64,000 bases of DNA from Clostridia bacterium. GTDB taxonomy: Bacteria > Bacillota > Clostridia > Oscillospirales > CAG-272. Within the stretch, counting starts at the first letter, position 1; each line of letters begins with the position of its first letter. Below the pieces are notes generated by a model. That model ran no database searches. It saw only the letters and a program-made list of their open reading frames with translations, and was not told where the DNA came from. The DNA is taken from assembly GCA_017466685.1 (NCBI GenBank), contig JAFTTS010000045.1:1-64000 (forward strand). Reading direction: 5' to 3'. Below, in pieces: positions 11,379 through 22,306 of the stretch. Both the position numbers and the translations under genes were made by a program.

Positions 11379-11654
11379 TTATAAAACAAGATTTATCACC
11401 GTCGCCGTTATAAGAAGAAGCGCGATAACAATAAGACTGATAATGCGGATAAGCGCGGTAATACCCGGCTCTCTTCCCTCTCGCTTGTCTTTTCTGTAAG
11501 CGATAATATCAATCACCGAAAGTATCACCATAGCAAGCGACATAAGCGGAAGAACATAATTTGCCGCCGTAGCTTCATCGGTGAAACGAGCAAAAAGTGC
11601 CGCCGCCAAAAGAAGCACCGCCGTTACCATACCGTAGATCTTCAGCTTACTCAT
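11379..11654 (-). CDS. Small three-helix membrane protein, unknown function
   Basis: 91 residues with three predicted transmembrane helices (about residues 7-24, 32-52 and 67-90) and a charged cytoplasmic loop 'YRKDKREGREPG'. I do not recognise a family. Its start overlaps the 3' end of the large anchored protein gene by 8 bp, so translational coupling and functional association with that protein are likely. Confidence 0.7.
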   Translation of the reverse strand: MSKLKIYGMVTAVLLLAAALFARFTDEATAANYVLPLMSLAMVILSVIDIIAYRKDKREGREPGITALIRIISLIVIALLLITATVINLVL

Positions 11655-14600
11655 CGGTCTCCTCCCTCTTGCGACTCAACAACACGATAACAATCACCGT
11701 TATGGCAGCGACTATGATACCGCCACCGATCCACATGAATTTTTCATAATCGGGTTCGGAATCGGGTGACTGCCGTTTCTCACGTGACTGCTCAATAACA
11801 TCAGCCAGCGATTCATCGTTATATACGCTCGAAAGTCCGTCAAGCGATTTAACAGACAGCGAGGAGGACTGTATCTCTCCACCACCGACAAGTATCTGCA
11901 AGCCGTCAACAGAATCCGCATTTTCAAAATTAGTGCCAACATCAATATAAAGAGTTGTCCATTCGCCCTGATTGACCTCGCCGAGTGCTTCAAATCGTTC
12001 CCCCCCGGCAAAGAGAACCACCTTCACGGGAACGGGAATTACTATCGTCGGGCTGACCTTGGTAACCTTTATCGTAAGCTCAAGGATCGGAGTCAGAGAA
12101 AAGTCCTCGGGATACTCAAAGCTATGGAAAATACCCATCCAACCGGGATTTCCGCCATCGCCGTAAAGTGAACCGTCAAGCGGTGCCGACAAAACATTTC
12201 CCGTATCGCTGACTATCCTCAGTGACTTCGAAAAATATCCCGGCTTAATGTCTCCGATGCTCGAAGTTCCGCTGAACGTATAATATGAGAAGCGTCCCCG
12301 TACATTTTCTGGCGCAGTCACGGTTGCCGCGGCAGAGGTGAGCAGCTTGTTCTTTAACTTACCCGAGTCATAATTCGGAAAAAGATCAAAAAAGCTTTCA
12401 ACCTCAAGGCGTGTTGCCACCTCATCCGTAACGCTCGACGAACGGTCCGTGTCTATAAGCCGTACCGCCTCTGTGATACCGTTATTGTAAGCGGCTGTGC
12501 AGGCAATGTAAGCGTCAACCTTGTCGTCAAAGAGTGCCATATAGTATCCGAGGGCAAAACTTTCAAGCTTTTCCTCATCGCTCACAACCGAAACCGTATA
12601 AACAGAATCGCAGAATATAATATGCTTGCCGGAGCAGTTATTGTTTCGGAGGATATCCTTGATGGACGTACAGTCTTTTGTGTCAATATATTCCGAGGTC
12701 TCATCCTTACCAACGCGGTATATTCTTTCGATGGCAACCTCCCATGGAAACTGTCCGTATGCCTCGGTCTCTCCGATAAGTAAGGGGAGATACTCTGTAA
12801 GATCTGTCTCATCGGAGCGCAGACCGTTATCCGAGATAAGAAGATCGGTCAGTGAAACATACACCTTCGCCGAGGGATTGACCGCCGCAAGATTCATATA
12901 GATACTGCGAAGATTATATGCAGTGTATCTTACCGCGTCACGAAGCGATTCACCCTCTGCGATAATATTCTCGCCGAAGCCGTACACAACGCCGATAACG
13001 CGTCCGCCACGACACCAGTTTTCGGCTGTGTATGCACCGAGTGCGGCGATATATTCGGTGCCGTCATCTGCCTTTATCATCTTGGCATAGTTGATATAAT
13101 CATCCGCACTGTAAGTCGCGTAAAGCTCGTCGGCATATCCGTGTGACCAGCCGCTAAAACGAAGCAGGACTTGTACACCGGCATCGGAAAGGACGGTTAT
13201 CTTCTGCGAAAGAGAATCAAGATAGGTTTCATTCAGATAATACGCCTTACCGTTGTAAATATACTGAAAGCCCTCACTCTTGTTAACAAACGCAAGCTGA
13301 GTGTCAACCTCAAGCAAGGTGACACCGACATCAAGATCACCGATAAGTGAAATATCAGGCGTGAAAAATCCCTTTTCATCGGCAGAAAACGCAGTTGCTT
13401 CACCTGCACGCTTTTCGGGATTACTTAAATAGAACGGCTTATCAATCAGGGTATATCCGCCGCCTTCATGCAGGATAACGGCAAGAAAACGGCTGTGCAG
13501 TGCGTGTTTATTGCTGCTTGATATTTTCCATTTCAAATCAAAGCGTGCGCTCATAAGTCCCGTAACGATCGGTGTTTTTGAAAGAAGCTCATCGTCGCTC
13601 GGAAGGTCAGCACTGTCCCAGGCATATATCGCGATCTGTCCCGATTGGTTTGCGATTGCGATCTCGCTGTCAACCTCGCCGATAAAGCTTACCGTAACAA
13701 AATCGTCATTAATGTAACACGAGCTGATCTTTCCGCACGTTACATAATCGTCCGCCTTATACTGCACCGTGGGTGTTATGGATAAAAGCTCAACACTTCC
13801 CGTCCCTGCTTCAAAAACAAGCCTTATACTGTGAAGCATGGAAATATCACCGACGTGTGCATAGAGATACTGTGCATCCTCACCCTTTGACATCGGCACA
13901 ACAACGCTCTTGTCCTCACTGTTCACCTGCGTATCCGAGGTGGAATAATAAAGCGTAAAGCTGTCGGATTCGCTTTTATTGATAAGCTTTATACGGAGCG
14001 TATTGGCGTCCAAAATCCCCTCAGGCAGTGAAACATCCGCCTCAAGCTGCATATCCTCCGTTTGCGATGACACCATCAGTATGCTCTTTTTTTCAGGAGA
14101 AAACGACGCTGTACCGCCCGTTACCGAATAAACATCAAACATAAACCGTTCGGTCAGTTCACGGTCGATCATCTCGTCGGCATAAACACTGTCAATATAA
14201 AAATTGTATACGCCCGTCTGCGGCAGAGTTGTGTCAATCGTAACCTCTATCTGCGCTGACACAATATCGCTTCGTCCGTTCCACATACCGATATCAACAG
14301 AAACGGTATTCCACTGTCCGCCCGTGATAAGACCGAGCTGCTTTACGGTGTCTCCTTCGCTCGTGGCAAGTATCAGTCGGGTGTAATAAACGGCATTGGG
14401 ATCGGGAGCATAAAGCGGAACATATATGTCATATTTTATCTTGCGGTACTTTGAGAGGTCAAGGCTCTCCTCAAATTTCACCAAAACCGAGCGCATATCA
14501 CCGGCATCCCCCCATCGGGATGTAACCTCAAGCAAGGAGCGTTCCTCGCCGCCAAGGGTGAGCGTTCTGCGGCGTGCCGTGTAAACATTTTCATAAGGAG

Positions 14601-14754
14601 TGAAGCCATCGGAGGAAGCCCCAAAGTCGGCGATAGTATATACATCCCCGGGTTCTGCAAAAGCGGTAACGCCAAACATTAAAGCAGTCAGTATAAGCAT
14701 AAAAATGAACACAAAGCCATACCGCAAACGTCCGATTTTTCCCGCGTTTTTCAC
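11647..14754 (-). CDS. Large secreted, C-terminally anchored DUF5722-like protein
   Basis: 1035 residues from a GTG start with GGAGG 9 nt upstream. There is a signal peptide (about 1-33, ending 'VTAFAEPGD'), and a C-terminal transmembrane helix ('WIGGGIIVAAITVIVIVLL') with an RKRE stop-transfer tail. Residues of about 30-450 look beta-rich and carbohydrate-binding-module-like. The centre (about 460-800) resembles DUF5722, a TIM-barrel-like glycosidase-related domain: 'YNGKAYYLNETYLDSLSQ' and 'VLLRFSGWSHGYADELY'. A second beta-rich module follows (about 850-970). It probably binds or cleaves a polysaccharide at the cell surface. The DUF5722 call is from memory of the family pattern. Confidence 0.72.
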   Translation of the reverse strand: MKNAGKIGRLRYGFVFIFMLILTALMFGVTAFAEPGDVYTIADFGASSDGFTPYENVYTARRRTLTLGGEERSLLEVTSRWGDAGDMRSVLVKFEESLDLSKYRKIKYDIYVPLYAPDPNAVYYTRLILATSEGDTVKQLGLITGGQWNTVSVDIGMWNGRSDIVSAQIEVTIDTTLPQTGVYNFYIDSVYADEMIDRELTERFMFDVYSVTGGTASFSPEKKSILMVSSQTEDMQLEADVSLPEGILDANTLRIKLINKSESDSFTLYYSTSDTQVNSEDKSVVVPMSKGEDAQYLYAHVGDISMLHSIRLVFEAGTGSVELLSITPTVQYKADDYVTCGKISSCYINDDFVTVSFIGEVDSEIAIANQSGQIAIYAWDSADLPSDDELLSKTPIVTGLMSARFDLKWKISSSNKHALHSRFLAVILHEGGGYTLIDKPFYLSNPEKRAGEATAFSADEKGFFTPDISLIGDLDVGVTLLEVDTQLAFVNKSEGFQYIYNGKAYYLNETYLDSLSQKITVLSDAGVQVLLRFSGWSHGYADELYATYSADDYINYAKMIKADDGTEYIAALGAYTAENWCRGGRVIGVVYGFGENIIAEGESLRDAVRYTAYNLRSIYMNLAAVNPSAKVYVSLTDLLISDNGLRSDETDLTEYLPLLIGETEAYGQFPWEVAIERIYRVGKDETSEYIDTKDCTSIKDILRNNNCSGKHIIFCDSVYTVSVVSDEEKLESFALGYYMALFDDKVDAYIACTAAYNNGITEAVRLIDTDRSSSVTDEVATRLEVESFFDLFPNYDSGKLKNKLLTSAAATVTAPENVRGRFSYYTFSGTSSIGDIKPGYFSKSLRIVSDTGNVLSAPLDGSLYGDGGNPGWMGIFHSFEYPEDFSLTPILELTIKVTKVSPTIVIPVPVKVVLFAGGERFEALGEVNQGEWTTLYIDVGTNFENADSVDGLQILVGGGEIQSSSLSVKSLDGLSSVYNDESLADVIEQSREKRQSPDSEPDYEKFMWIGGGIIVAAITVIVIVLLSRKREETDE

Positions 14755-14894: not shown

Positions 14895-14960
14895 AGTTGC
14901 AATCGATAGCGAAGGCTTCTATTTTTGAAAGCCGAATATTACTGTAACAAGGAGACAAAA

Positions 14961-15884
14961 ATGCCTATTAAAATACCGCAGGGACTTCCTGCCGCAGAAA
15001 CTCTTGAAGGCGAAAATATATTTGTAATGAGTGATTTTCGCGCCGAGCATCAGGATATACGTCCACTGAAGATCGCGGTGCTCAATCTGATGCCGACCAA
15101 GATCACCACCGAAACACAGCTCATACGCCTTCTCTCAAACAGCTCGCTGCAGATAGAGATCACCCTGCTCCAGACCGCAACACACCGTTCAACTCACACC
15201 TCTGAAGAACATATGAAGGCCTTTTATAAAAACTTTGACGACATAAGAGGCGAAAACTTCGACGGACTTATCATCACAGGTGCACCGGTTGAAAACCTCG
15301 ATTTCCACGACGTTACATACTGGGATGAGCTCTGTGACATCATGGAATGGTCGAAGACACACGTTTTTTCAACGCTTCACATCTGTTGGGCGGCACAGGC
15401 AGGACTGCATTATCATTACGGCGTTAACAAGCATCCGCTCGATAAAAAGATGTTCGGCGTTTTCGATCACTATGCACTCCGTCCAAACCATCCGATCGTA
15501 CGCGGCTTTGACGAGGTATTCAAAGCACCGCACTCACGTCACACGGGTATCGCCGAAAGTGAAATAACCAAGGTGAGCGAGCTTGAGCTTATCGCAAGAA
15601 GTGACATCGCAGGTCCTTATATTATCGCCGCAAAAAATTCGCGTATGCTTTTTGTAACGGGACATTCGGAATATGATTATGACACCCTTTCAAAGGAATA
15701 TTTCCGTGACGTTGACAAGGGACTTGAGATCGAGCTTCCGTATAACTATTTCCCGAACAACGATCCGCAAAGACGTCCTCCGAACGTGTGGCGCGGACAC
15801 TCCAACCTGTTATTCTCCAATTGGCTTAACTATTTTGTATATCAGAACACACCGTACGATCTTGACGACCTTTCAAAAGCGTAA
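14961..15884 (+). CDS. metA: Homoserine O-acetyltransferase (MetA fold)
   Basis: 307 residues from the ATG at 14961 with AAGGAG upstream. The catalytic Cys is C142 in '[18 protein letters not shown]', with the later His and Glu residues in place ('[13 protein letters not shown]'). Residue 111 is Glu ('[10 protein letters not shown]'), the residue that selects acetyl-CoA in the Bacillus cereus enzyme, whereas Gly111 gives succinyl-CoA in E. coli. I therefore call it an acetyltransferase, despite frequent annotation of the family as succinyltransferase. It starts methionine synthesis from homoserine. It is monocistronic with its own promoter and terminator. Confidence 0.93.
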
Positions 15885-16387: not shown

Positions 16388-16411
16388 GTTTCCCTTTTAG
16401 CAAAAAAACAA

Positions 16412-16440
16412 TGGTATCCGCATATTATGTGCAGATACCA
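16412..16440. terminator. Bidirectional terminator between two convergent genes
   Basis: TGGTATC and GATACCA arms (16412-16418, 16434-16440) with further inner pairing, an A-run on the left and a T-run on the right. It serves the small helical protein gene and the M56/M23 gene. Confidence 0.75.
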
Positions 16441-16449
16441 CATTTTTTA

Positions 16450-18024
16450 TTACTTGGCAAATAATGCTTCCGGATCAAGATATGCGCCGTCTTTGATCAT
16501 GGCAAATCCGAGATTCGGACCTGTCACTTCGCCCGTGCTTCCGACTGCTCCGATCTTTTCACCGCTCGCAACCTCATCTCCGATAGAGACAAGTGACTTT
16601 TCAAGATGGTGATAAAGCGTTATCCATCCGTCGCCGTGATCGACTTCGATAAAGTTACCCACCGACGGATTATATCCGCAGTTTGTGACTTTACCGTCTG
16701 CCGCGACGAAAACATCCGCACCGAGTGCCGCAGAAACGTTCACTCCGTTATTGAATATAACTACTCCGAACGGATTTGTGCGGCTGCCGAAATGACCTGT
16801 TATCTCGCCGTATTCGGCAAGTGGGCAGGAAAACTCAAGCACAGAGATTGGCTGGGAAGACTCAAGTATAACACCCTCAAGCTCACATTCAACATCGTCG
16901 ATATAAATATCCTCAACAGTCGTCACTTCATAGAGCATCTCCACGGTCGTTTCATCATAGATGTTATCCACGTAAACAGACGGTTCTTCCCCGATTTCAA
17001 TTTTACTGTCAGCAGGTGTCTCTTTCACGTCCTCAACCTCGATCTCAACAGACAGATCCTCCGTTTCCTCGGGTTCGACGAATGTTGTCACAACCTCTGA
17101 TTCTGTTTCATTTTCAGGCTTGCTGTCTGCTTCAACCGCCGTTACACTTATAAAGAAAACCGTCATCATTGAAAGTATAAGTCCTGCGCCAATAAAGCTG
17201 CATATTGTTATTTTTTTCGATTTCATAATAAATTCAATCCTTTCATTCAGCACCGGCGCACCGAATGAGCAAACCGCCTCTGTCATGCGAACCTCTTCTG
17301 CGGCAATAAGGCAAAGCGCATAATCATAGTTACTCGTCCCACCGCTTAAAACCGTCTCGTCGCACGCAAGCTCAATATCACGATTTGCAAGCTGCCACAT
17401 AACCCATACAAGCGGATTACACCAATTAAGGCAGACCGCTGCGGCAATAAGCCATTTAACAAGCTGATCTGCGCATTTGATGTGCTGCTTTTCATGGGCA
17501 ATTATCAGCTCAAGTCGGGAAATATCGAGCGCGAGCATTTGTGACGGAATAAATATGATCGGGCGAAAAACTCCGCAGGAAAACGGCACACCTGCACCGT
17601 CCCCGTATCGTACATCCGCTCCACACCTACAAATCTCATATTTTTCGCTGACAGGCTCGGCATGAAGTGCGATTTTTCTCATTCGTACATACGCCGATAT
17701 TAAAAATCCTGCGCTGATTACCGTTCCGAGTGCAAGGACTGATTTTATGATCACATCAAAGTCAAAATGAGCTGCTTCAGGCGCAGTGGCATCCCCCTGA
17801 TATACCGCATCCGACGCATCGATATACACCGTTTGCGTAGGATTTGCAGGCTGCTCTACTTCGATCTCTATTTCAAAATTAAATGAAAAAGGTATAAGAA
17901 ACCGAAGTGCCGCAAGTATCCAGAGAAGGCGAAAACAGCGTTTGGGCAGCCGCTTCAAAAGAAACAACCGCAGCACTATGATGACAAGTATCATCACACT
18001 TGCGCTGATTGCCGACGTAATCAT
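16450..18024 (-). CDS. BlaR1-type M56 peptidase with C-terminal degenerate M23 (LytM) domain
   Basis: 524 residues. The N-terminal part is a BlaR1/MecR1-like M56 membrane peptidase with several helices and the zinc motif 'LIIAHEKQHIKC' (H177, E178, H181). A helix near residue 275 and a Glu-rich linker (about 295-385) lead to an extracellular M23 domain (about 400-524). In that domain all three expected zinc ligands are replaced: the HxxxD pair is N425/N429 ('FNNGVN'), and the distal His is G506 ('TGPNLGF'). Only H473 of the two catalytic His remains. The domain is likely a binding sensor rather than an enzyme. It overlaps blaI by 4 bp (ATGA), so the pair should form a signal-repressor unit responding to the cell wall. 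Confidence 0.9.
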   Translation of the reverse strand: MITSAISASVMILVIIVLRLFLLKRLPKRCFRLLWILAALRFLIPFSFNFEIEIEVEQPANPTQTVYIDASDAVYQGDATAPEAAHFDFDVIIKSVLALGTVISAGFLISAYVRMRKIALHAEPVSEKYEICRCGADVRYGDGAGVPFSCGVFRPIIFIPSQMLALDISRLELIIAHEKQHIKCADQLVKWLIAAAVCLNWCNPLVWVMWQLANRDIELACDETVLSGGTSNYDYALCLIAAEEVRMTEAVCSFGAPVLNERIEFIMKSKKITICSFIGAGLILSMMTVFFISVTAVEADSKPENETESEVVTTFVEPEETEDLSVEIEVEDVKETPADSKIEIGEEPSVYVDNIYDETTVEMLYEVTTVEDIYIDDVECELEGVILESSQPISVLEFSCPLAEYGEITGHFGSRTNPFGVVIFNNGVNVSAALGADVFVAADGKVTNCGYNPSVGNFIEVDHGDGWITLYHHLEKSLVSIGDEVASGEKIGAVGSTGEVTGPNLGFAMIKDGAYLDPEALFAK

Positions 18025-18436: not shown

Positions 18437-18454
18437 ATACTATCATGATAGTAT
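18437..18454. promoter_or_regulatory. Candidate BlaI operator 1 (18-bp perfect palindrome)
   Basis: ATACTATCATGATAGTAT is a perfect palindrome lying at the predicted transcription start of blaI. The TAC/GTA ends match the known style of BlaI/MecI operators. Confidence 0.7.
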
Positions 18455-18458
18455 ATAC

Positions 18459-18487
18459 ATTCTACCACAATAGTATGGATTTGTCAA
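18459..18487 (-). promoter_or_regulatory. Promoter of the blaI-M56 operon
   Basis: Minus-strand TTGACA (18487-18482), 17-bp spacer, TAGAAT (18464-18459). An imperfect dyad (TACCACAATAGTA, 18463-18475) lies inside the promoter, consistent with repression. Confidence 0.8.
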
Positions 18488-18488
18488 T

Positions 18489-18502
18489 ACTACTCGAGTA
18501 GT
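18489..18502. promoter_or_regulatory. Candidate BlaI operator 2 (14-bp perfect palindrome)
   Basis: ACTACTCGAGTAGT, a perfect palindrome directly upstream of the -35 box of the blaI promoter. Confidence 0.6.
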
Positions 18503-18554
18503 TTTTTGAAAAAATTTTTTATCAGCGGCGAAAACGCTCAAATCAAAAGCCGGC

Positions 18555-18601: not shown

Positions 18602-18679
18602 TCACTTTTTTCCGATTTTAAAAATTCTTCTGAGAAGCGGAACAAATATCCGCGGTGACTTCATAACAACAACTTTCAT
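18602..18679 (-). CDS. spoVM: Stage V sporulation protein M
   Basis: A 25-codon gene easily missed by gene callers. It encodes MKVVVMKSP followed by RIFVPLLRRIFKIGKK. It has the length, amphipathic-helix pattern, basic C-terminus and Pro9 of Bacillus SpoVM, the small protein that recognises forespore membrane curvature and anchors SpoIVA. The position is also right: in Bacillus subtilis the order is prpC-prkC-rsgA-rpe-thiN-spoVM, and here it lies 82 bp after thiN in the same orientation. AAGGGA is 11 nt upstream of the ATG and a terminator follows. It indicates that the organism can sporulate. Confidence 0.88.
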   Translation of the reverse strand: MKVVVMKSPRIFVPLLRRIFKIGKK

Positions 18680-20446: not shown

Positions 20447-22306
20447 TCACTCTTCTCCGGTGTCATTGACTGAACCACCTAAAATTGCGTCAAGCAGTTC
20501 TTCCATTGCTTCGTCGGAATCGTCCGGGATATTGTCGGAACTGTCAGTGCTGTCAAGCGGAGCATCAACAGTCTCGTCATCCGCGGTTGTTTCCTCGGTT
20601 TCAACAATAAACGGTCCCTTACTCATAACAAAGTCAATCTTCGTTCCGCTGGGCACCTGCTGCTCCTGAGAAACAGTCTGACTGATAACTCTGCCTGCTT
20701 CAACGCTTTCGTTATATTCCTCGGAAACATAACCGAGCTGCAGTCCGCGTTCGGCAAGCAGCGCCATAACTTCACTTTCTGTGCAATTGGTGAAATACGG
20801 AACCACTGTGTATTCAATATCCTGACCGCTGCTGACATAAATCGTGACGTGACTGCCGCCTTCAAGTATTGTACCGGGCTCGGGATCGGTGCGGATAACA
20901 TAGCCGGGGCTTATAATATCATGCGGCTCTTTTACAATGATCGGAATAAGCCCGAGATTCTTGACCGCAATTTCCGCCGTACGTGAATCATCATACTGAT
21001 AATCGGGAAGCTCACAGGTCGTTGCACCCTTGCTTACTTTAAGCGTAAGCTCACATTTCTGATTTTTAGCAGGATCGATCTTTCGCTTTTCATCGGGGAG
21101 CGGATCCTGTCCGATAATTTGATTCTGCGGATATTTGGCATCGTATATATACTCAACCTCGACATTGTAATTACCCTTTTCAAGCTCTGCTTCAAAGTCT
21201 TCACTGTAAAAGCTGTCGATAAACTTGGGAATGACGATCTGCTCTGAGGTATCGTTTGCCAAGCTGTCTCCAAGCTTCGTAAAAACAACAACGGCACTGA
21301 TTATGAAAACGATCAGGAACGAGCTCGCAACACCTGCAACGACCGGGAACATCGAACGGCTTGCACGCGTCGGTCTCGTAAGCTTCTTAACATTATCGGG
21401 CATAGCCTGTCCACCCTCTGAAGACATATCGGAGGTGGTTTCGGTCTTGGGCATCTTGAAAACAGTTCTCGGATTATTCTTAACCTGAGCTAAGTGACGA
21501 AGCATCTGTGCCGCACTCTGGAAACGGTTATCGGGATTTTTCTCCATCGCGCCCATTATGATCTGTTCAAGTCCGAGAGGCAGTGAATCATTAAGCTCAC
21601 GAGGCGGACGCGGACGGTTTTTAACCTGCATTATCGCAACGGTTACAGGGCTGTCCGCAACAAACGGAAGCTTACCGGTCGCCATTTCGTACATGGTTAC
21701 GCCGAGCGAATAAATGTCACTTCTGCGGTCGATCTTCTTGCCGCTTGCCTGCTCGGGACTAATATAGAATACCGTACCGATAGCCTTGTCCGTCATGGTT
21801 ACGGTTTCCGCATTTGGCAGCTTTGCGATACCGAAGTCCGCAACCTTTATCGAGCCGTTTTTGAGCATCATGATATTCTGCGGCTTGATGTCACGGTGGA
21901 CAACGCCTTTCTGATGTGCATGATCGAGAGCTAAAAGTATCTGCTCTGTGATGCTCATTATTTCATTAAAGCTGAGAGTTCCTTTCTTTAAAATGTAATT
22001 TTTCAGAGTGATACCCTCAACAAGCTCCATTACGATATATTTGAGCGAATCCTTAACGGAAACATCGTAAATATTAACGATATTCGGATGAGAAAGCATC
22101 GCAACCGCTTTACTTTCGTTAATGAAACGCTTAACCGACTGAACGTCATTGTTGATCTCATCCTTGAGCATTTTAACGGCAACATTACGGCGCATGAGAA
22201 GATCGGTCGCCTCGAAAACGACGGCCATACCGCCGATGCCGATAACTTTAATGATTCTGTAACGTTTGTCGAAAACCTGTCCGACATATCTTTCAAACTG
22301 ATCCAT
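20447..22306 (-). CDS. prkC: PASTA-domain Ser/Thr protein kinase PrkC
   Basis: 619 residues. A cytoplasmic kinase (about 1-280) has 'GIGGMAVVFEA', catalytic Lys in 'VAVKMLKDE', 'VHRDIKPQNIMML' and 'VADFGIAKLP', followed by a juxtamembrane linker. A transmembrane helix ('VVAGVASSFLIVFIISAVVV', about 325-345) precedes three extracellular PASTA repeats to about residue 575 and an acidic Asp/Ser/Thr-rich tail. PASTA domains bind peptidoglycan fragments or lipid II, so the kinase links cell-wall state to growth and, in Bacillus, spore germination. It starts 2 nt after its phosphatase partner. Confidence 0.95.
   Translation of the reverse strand: MDQFERYVGQVFDKRYRIIKVIGIGGMAVVFEATDLLMRRNVAVKMLKDEINNDVQSVKRFINESKAVAMLSHPNIVNIYDVSVKDSLKYIVMELVEGITLKNYILKKGTLSFNEIMSITEQILLALDHAHQKGVVHRDIKPQNIMMLKNGSIKVADFGIAKLPNAETVTMTDKAIGTVFYISPEQASGKKIDRRSDIYSLGVTMYEMATGKLPFVADSPVTVAIMQVKNRPRPPRELNDSLPLGLEQIIMGAMEKNPDNRFQSAAQMLRHLAQVKNNPRTVFKMPKTETTSDMSSEGGQAMPDNVKKLTRPTRASRSMFPVVAGVASSFLIVFIISAVVVFTKLGDSLANDTSEQIVIPKFIDSFYSEDFEAELEKGNYNVEVEYIYDAKYPQNQIIGQDPLPDEKRKIDPAKNQKCELTLKVSKGATTCELPDYQYDDSRTAEIAVKNLGLIPIIVKEPHDIISPGYVIRTDPEPGTILEGGSHVTIYVSSGQDIEYTVVPYFTNCTESEVMALLAERGLQLGYVSEEYNESVEAGRVISQTVSQEQQVPSGTKIDFVMSKGPFIVETEETTADDETVDAPLDSTDSSDNIPDDSDEAMEELLDAILGGSVNDTGEE

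Follow-up and report, generated by a model that had tools for sequence, protein, structure and literature searches.

The window (the whole stretch of DNA analysed, 64,000 nucleotides) encodes a fusion protein in which an M56 membrane protease with the key residues of BlaR1 is followed by an M23/LytM domain that has lost all three of its zinc ligands. The gene lies directly downstream of a blaI-type repressor gene, which overlaps its start by ATGA. We consider it somewhat likely that the two genes form a self-regulated signalling unit of the BlaI/BlaR1 kind, in which the LytM pseudoenzyme serves as the input domain of the antirepressor. The features of the unit are listed in Table 1; the coordinates, strand and residue numbers given for the fusion ORF in the first-pass annotation of this DNA were correct.

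Table 1. Features of the blaI-fusion operon, with positions in the window, strand and basis of assignment.
Feature	Position	Strand	Basis
M56-M23 fusion, BlaR1-like antirepressor/sensor, 524 aa	16450..18024	-	ORF, translation, Pfam
M56 membrane metallopeptidase domain, aa 3-265	17230..18018	-	Pfam Peptidase_M56 133 bits; all BlaR1 key residues
HEKQH catalytic motif (H177, E178, H181), equivalent of BlaR1 H201ExxH	17482..17496	-	PMC9834060
E218xxxD222, equivalent of BlaR1 E242xxxD246	17359..17373	-	Invariant in aligned M56 ORFs; PMC9834060
S253-F254, probable autocleavage site (BlaR1 S283-F284), inferred	17263..17268	-	Alignment position before conserved R262; PMC9834060
Last transmembrane helix, aa 274-291	17152..17205	-	AlphaFold2 secondary structure
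Linker, acidic and low-complexity, aa 299-400	16825..17130	-	Sequence; pLDDT mostly below 50
M23/LytM pseudoenzyme domain, aa 424-518	16471..16755	-	Pfam Peptidase_M23 87 bits; LytM structure match
N425..N429, replacing zinc-binding HxxxD	16738..16752	-	Alignment with intact homologues
H473, catalytic non-ligand histidine, retained	16606..16608	-	
N504-L-G506, replacing HxH	16507..16515	-	Alignment with intact homologues
Terminator-like hairpin 3' of the fusion gene	16411..16441	-	
blaI-type repressor, 119 aa	18021..18380	-	Pfam Penicillinase_R 75.6 bits; MecI/BlaI structures
BlaI-type operator, perfect dyad TACTATCATGATAGTA	18438..18453	.	Sole perfect TACTAYNNNNRTAGTA match in genome (~89% complete)
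Operator-like dyad 2, one mismatch, overlaps the -10 box	18460..18475	.	
Operator-like dyad 3, one mismatch, abuts the -35 box	18488..18503	.	
Promoter TTGACA-17-TAGAAT, 11/12 consensus matches	18459..18487	-	

The residues of importance in S. aureus BlaR1 are H201ExxH, E242xxxD246, Asp210, Tyr261, Arg294 and the autocleavage pair Ser283-Phe284 (PMC9834060). Residues were matched to the fusion protein by motif spacing and not by direct alignment, which placed Asp210, Tyr261 and Arg294 at D186, Y235 and R262, respectively. The catalytic HEKQH at residues 177-181 was intact, as had been claimed, and R262 and the catalytic positions carried the identical residue in every fetched M56 ORF that aligned there. 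No transpeptidase family was detected in the fusion protein with Pfam, and M23 occupied the C-terminal sensor position. Strictly speaking, the fusion protein falls outside BlaR1: it lacks the penicillin-binding sensor, and its score with the NCBIfam model blaR1_generic was 64 bits, below the cut-off of 400. The system resembles BlaR1/MecR1 and BlaI/MecI of S. aureus and B. licheniformis in the key residues of M56, the adjoining BlaI-family repressor, the 16-bp TACTA-type dyad operators and the presence of a C-terminal domain at the sensor position. It differs in that the sensor of BlaR1/MecR1 is a penicillin-binding (class D beta-lactamase-like) domain, in whose place the fusion protein has LytM/M23, and in that no beta-lactamase link was found for the window system in the ~89% complete assembly. 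The comparison of a dead LytM domain with a dead penicillin-binding sensor, as first drawn, was inexact, since the active-site serine of BlaR1 is acylated by beta-lactam (PMC9834060).

The same 16-bp dyads surrounded a near-consensus promoter before blaI in all five genus operons (the window, G002, G003, G004 and G005), and in these five genomes the only perfect TACTAYNNNNRTAGTA matches were those at the blaI promoter. In G001, which yielded no fusion, the one perfect match lay elsewhere. A second perfect operator, for example at a beta-lactamase or PBP gene, was not found in the genome of the window (assembly ~89% complete). Because the three operators around the promoter are conserved in the genus operons and one of them is the sole perfect match in the genome, the operon is probably an autoregulated two-gene unit. 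One-mismatch matches genome-wide were considered as targets and dropped as coincidence-like; the TACAATATAGRTAGTA sites examined carry a TTACAATAT -10-like sequence, another candidate lay inside coding sequence, and no regulon beyond the operon itself is claimed. The BlaI of the window aligned with MecI, with Cys-Leu at the position of the scissile Asn-Phe of MecI/BlaI. Related BlaIs typically have Leu or Ile there, so cleavage of the repressor at the putative Cys-Leu site is plausible.

In M23 enzymes, zinc is bound by both the His and the Asp of HxxxD and by the second His of HxH; the remaining His of the latter motif and a separate histidine act on the catalytic water (PMC9662197). The M23 domain of the window reads N425-NGV-N429, YHH473L and GPN504-L-G506F at the places of HxxxD, YxH and HLH in intact homologues. 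Since the three ligands map to N425, N429 and G506, all of them are lost (H425N, D429N and H506G), together with one of the two catalytic histidines (H504N). The loss of all zinc ligands had been noticed in the first-pass annotation and was borne out. The survival of H473 also held, but this residue is the other catalytic histidine and not a zinc ligand as had been supposed, and N504 likewise replaces a catalytic histidine and not a ligand. The domain shares the LytM beta-sheet fold with active M23 endopeptidases and differs from them in having NNGVN and NLG in place of HxxxD and HxH.

The fusion protein was modelled with AlphaFold2 at an overall pLDDT of 67.8, with values mostly of 74-88 in the M23 domain and a disordered acidic linker. 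Modelling from five sequences gave a poorer result, with a pLDDT of 63.6, and the first model was used. Foldseek matched the model to the M23/LytM domains of StM23 (9gy1, Foldseek rmsd 1.7), DipM, ShyA, EnvC, Csd1/2, SpoIIQ and LytM. The structure matches also included 6jn1, which is, according to its entry title, a site-mutant M23 enzyme with a bound pentapeptide; since this mutant was solved with the peptide, peptide binding may persist after loss of the site.

In the signalling unit that we favour, BlaI would repress its own operon from the three dyads around the promoter. The LytM domain would be extracellular, with a topology taken from that of BlaR1, and would be reached via the acidic linker of ~100 residues. 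Its groove-forming fold would have been kept and its zinc binding and catalysis lost in this lineage, giving binding without cutting. Binding of an external ligand by this domain could then trigger the cytoplasm-facing M56 zinc protease, which, if both cleavages follow the BlaR1 pattern, would cut the fusion protein itself and BlaI and thereby induce the operon. More cautiously, we infer that the ligand may be a cell-wall component such as a stem peptide or muropeptide. The descent of the LytM domain from a wall peptidase speaks for a wall peptide, and a wall enzyme is the main alternative.

A receptor of the latter type, with a wall hydrolase or another extracytoplasmic protein docking in the dead LytM groove and the system either reporting the availability of an autolysin or recruiting one, is unlikely but is the best placed of the other explanations. 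The degenerate LytM domains of DipM and EnvC are protein binders, and DipM is catalytically inactive, with autolysins docking in its degenerate groove (PMC10336132). DipM was the best PDB sequence match and carries the identical N-x3-N replacement, and EnvC and Csd1/2 were among the fold matches. However, the LytM regulators known so far are free-standing proteins of the Gram-negative periplasm, and no amidase or transglycosylase gene lies beside the operon. DipM, EnvC and NlpD resemble the window domain in their LytM fold and degenerate site, yet they work as soluble activators of hydrolases in the periplasm and have LysM or coiled-coil parts, whereas the window LytM domain is coupled to an M56 protease and a repressor.

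Fusions were searched for in genomes of the family (395), the order (394) and the class (391) and among the fetched M56 neighbours. The search was made with fusion profiles, and the 27 distinct M56-M23 fusions recovered are a sample and not a census. All five site residues were present in 17 of the 27. At least one zinc ligand was lost in seven (the window, G022, G723, G557, G664, G689 and G718), and in three others (G072, G852 and G882) the zinc ligands were kept and a catalytic histidine was lost. HxxxD, H and HxH were intact in all four same-genus fusions (L005, L006, L008 and L009). The nearest homologue, L005, was about 59-61% identical to the window copy in M56 and 39% in M23. On the M56 tree the window copy was sister to the intact L005 with full support, and at least four independent changes of the site-loss label were required. 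The NxxxN/NxG copy was present in one genome only. In a plasmid search, no match spanned 80% or more of the fusion protein, and a genome-contig scan gave three matches only, all in the M23 region and all from Dehalococcoidia. The other fusions share with the window copy the pair of domains, their order and, in the relatives checked, an upstream blaI, but most of those recovered keep the M23 site whereas the window copy has lost all three zinc ligands. What stood of the first reading is an M56 antirepressor beside blaI with a zinc-less, apparently maintained LytM domain at the sensor position; ligand loss as a general rule among M56-M23 proteins did not survive the alignment, with 17 of 27 copies intact, including the four from the genus. 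Because the nearest homologues are intact, the M23 domain of the fusions may, within the genus, be mainly an enzyme.

Of 111 free M23 domains from the same genomes, 65 were fully intact, compared to 17 of 27 for the fusions (p = 0.83). Zinc-ligand loss was not significantly enriched in the fusions relative to these free domains (7/27 versus 20/111, p = 0.42), nor was it when only fully aligned M23 domains were compared (6/26 versus 8/99, p = 0.07). The idea that fusion promotes ligand loss was dropped on these non-significant comparisons. Degenerate M23 domains are common in the genomes sampled. Four genus genomes encode free M23 proteins (L292, L295, L297 and L299) with Asn replacing the zinc-binding second histidine of HxH and with HxxxD and the catalytic histidines retained. 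In five genus genomes, free M23 proteins of ~540-555 aa (L311, L313, L314, L316 and L328) retain the zinc ligands and vary freely at the first H of HxH (T, K, A, N, I). The G022 fusion (L142), an open frame of ~1549 aa, has CxC in place of HxH, possibly an altered metal site.

The first-pass annotation had held that intact homologues would make the window copy simply decayed. Homologues are indeed intact, but decay is not what the fold residues and evolutionary rates indicate. The window M23 domain kept 17 of 18 conserved non-catalytic positions compared to one of five active-site positions (Fisher p = 0.0027), the 18 being positions outside the active site at which 14 or more of the 17 intact M23 domains agree. 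Its coding region is without stops, and differences from L005 at codon positions 1, 2 and 3 were 0.41, 0.44 and 0.77, respectively. In M56, the relative rates of the window and L005 lineages were equal. In M23, the window lineage was richer in unique changes with most outgroups (28 versus 11 with L006, p = 0.009). When the five site columns were removed, the count with L006 as outgroup was 24 versus 11 (p = 0.04), and the excess over L005 was non-significant for seven of eight outgroups. As read from the sequences, the loss is concentrated on catalysis and the fold is retained. Simple decay, in which the M23 domain is functionless in the window species and drifting and M56 alone matters, would fit the intact sites of all four same-genus homologues and the lower identity to L005 in M23 (39%) than in M56 (61%). 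It is nevertheless improbable given the retained fold positions, the stop-free frame with most variation at third codon positions, the rate excess that mostly disappeared without the site columns, and the recurrence of ligand loss in other lineages. Replacement of the domain by recombination with a free-standing M23, a swap instead of stepwise loss, is very unlikely: the M23 trees did not resolve the placement of the window copy, and although its best M23 identity was 48%, to a free M23, and a clade with free genus M23s was not rejected (p-AU 0.22), neither was a sister relation to the M23 of L005 (p-AU 0.20), the closest free M23s are intact so that ligand loss would still be needed, and the operon position is conserved.

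The signalling unit with a LytM pseudoenzyme as input domain remains the reading we favour for the window. A broader proposal, which we make tentatively and regard as possible but rather doubtful, is that the M56-M23 fusions are a family of wall receptors, in which a LytM endopeptidase would repeatedly and independently have been made into a zinc-free peptidoglycan receptor controlling the proteolytic release of BlaI. These fusions have been described in one sentence, with no role assigned, M56 being among the domains found in under 1% of M23 hits (PMC9662197), and the wall-receptor reading, if true, would give them a function and would describe a pathway of the BlaR1 type in which the wall itself is sensed. 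The window fusion lends itself to testing whether an enzyme has become a receptor within a known antibiotic-sensing architecture. As intact and dead versions occur in one genus, domain swaps could show whether signalling requires catalysis. Three same-family BlaI-M56 pairs (L068, L069 and L071) were without M23 and had quite different C-terminal domains, which suggests that the sensor domain in such pairs is often swapped.

Several other genes lie near the operon. Just upstream of the blaI promoter is a SpoVM-like ORF of 25 aa, MKVVVMKSPRIFVPLLRRIFKIGKK (18602-18679, minus strand), which scored 16.1 bits with NCBIfam SpoVM_broad, below the cut-off of 31; similar peptides were also found upstream of blaI in L005 and L006. 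On the other side, a gene for a 1035-aa protein (11647-14754, minus strand) with a hydrophobic C-terminal segment and a DUF5722 match (58.7 bits) adjoins a divergent MetA gene (14925-15884). Near the blaI unit there is also a gene for a Stk1/PrkC-type Ser/Thr kinase with PASTA domains (20447-22306, minus strand), followed by rsgA and a thiamine pyrophosphokinase gene. This kinase is likely another wall sensor encoded nearby.
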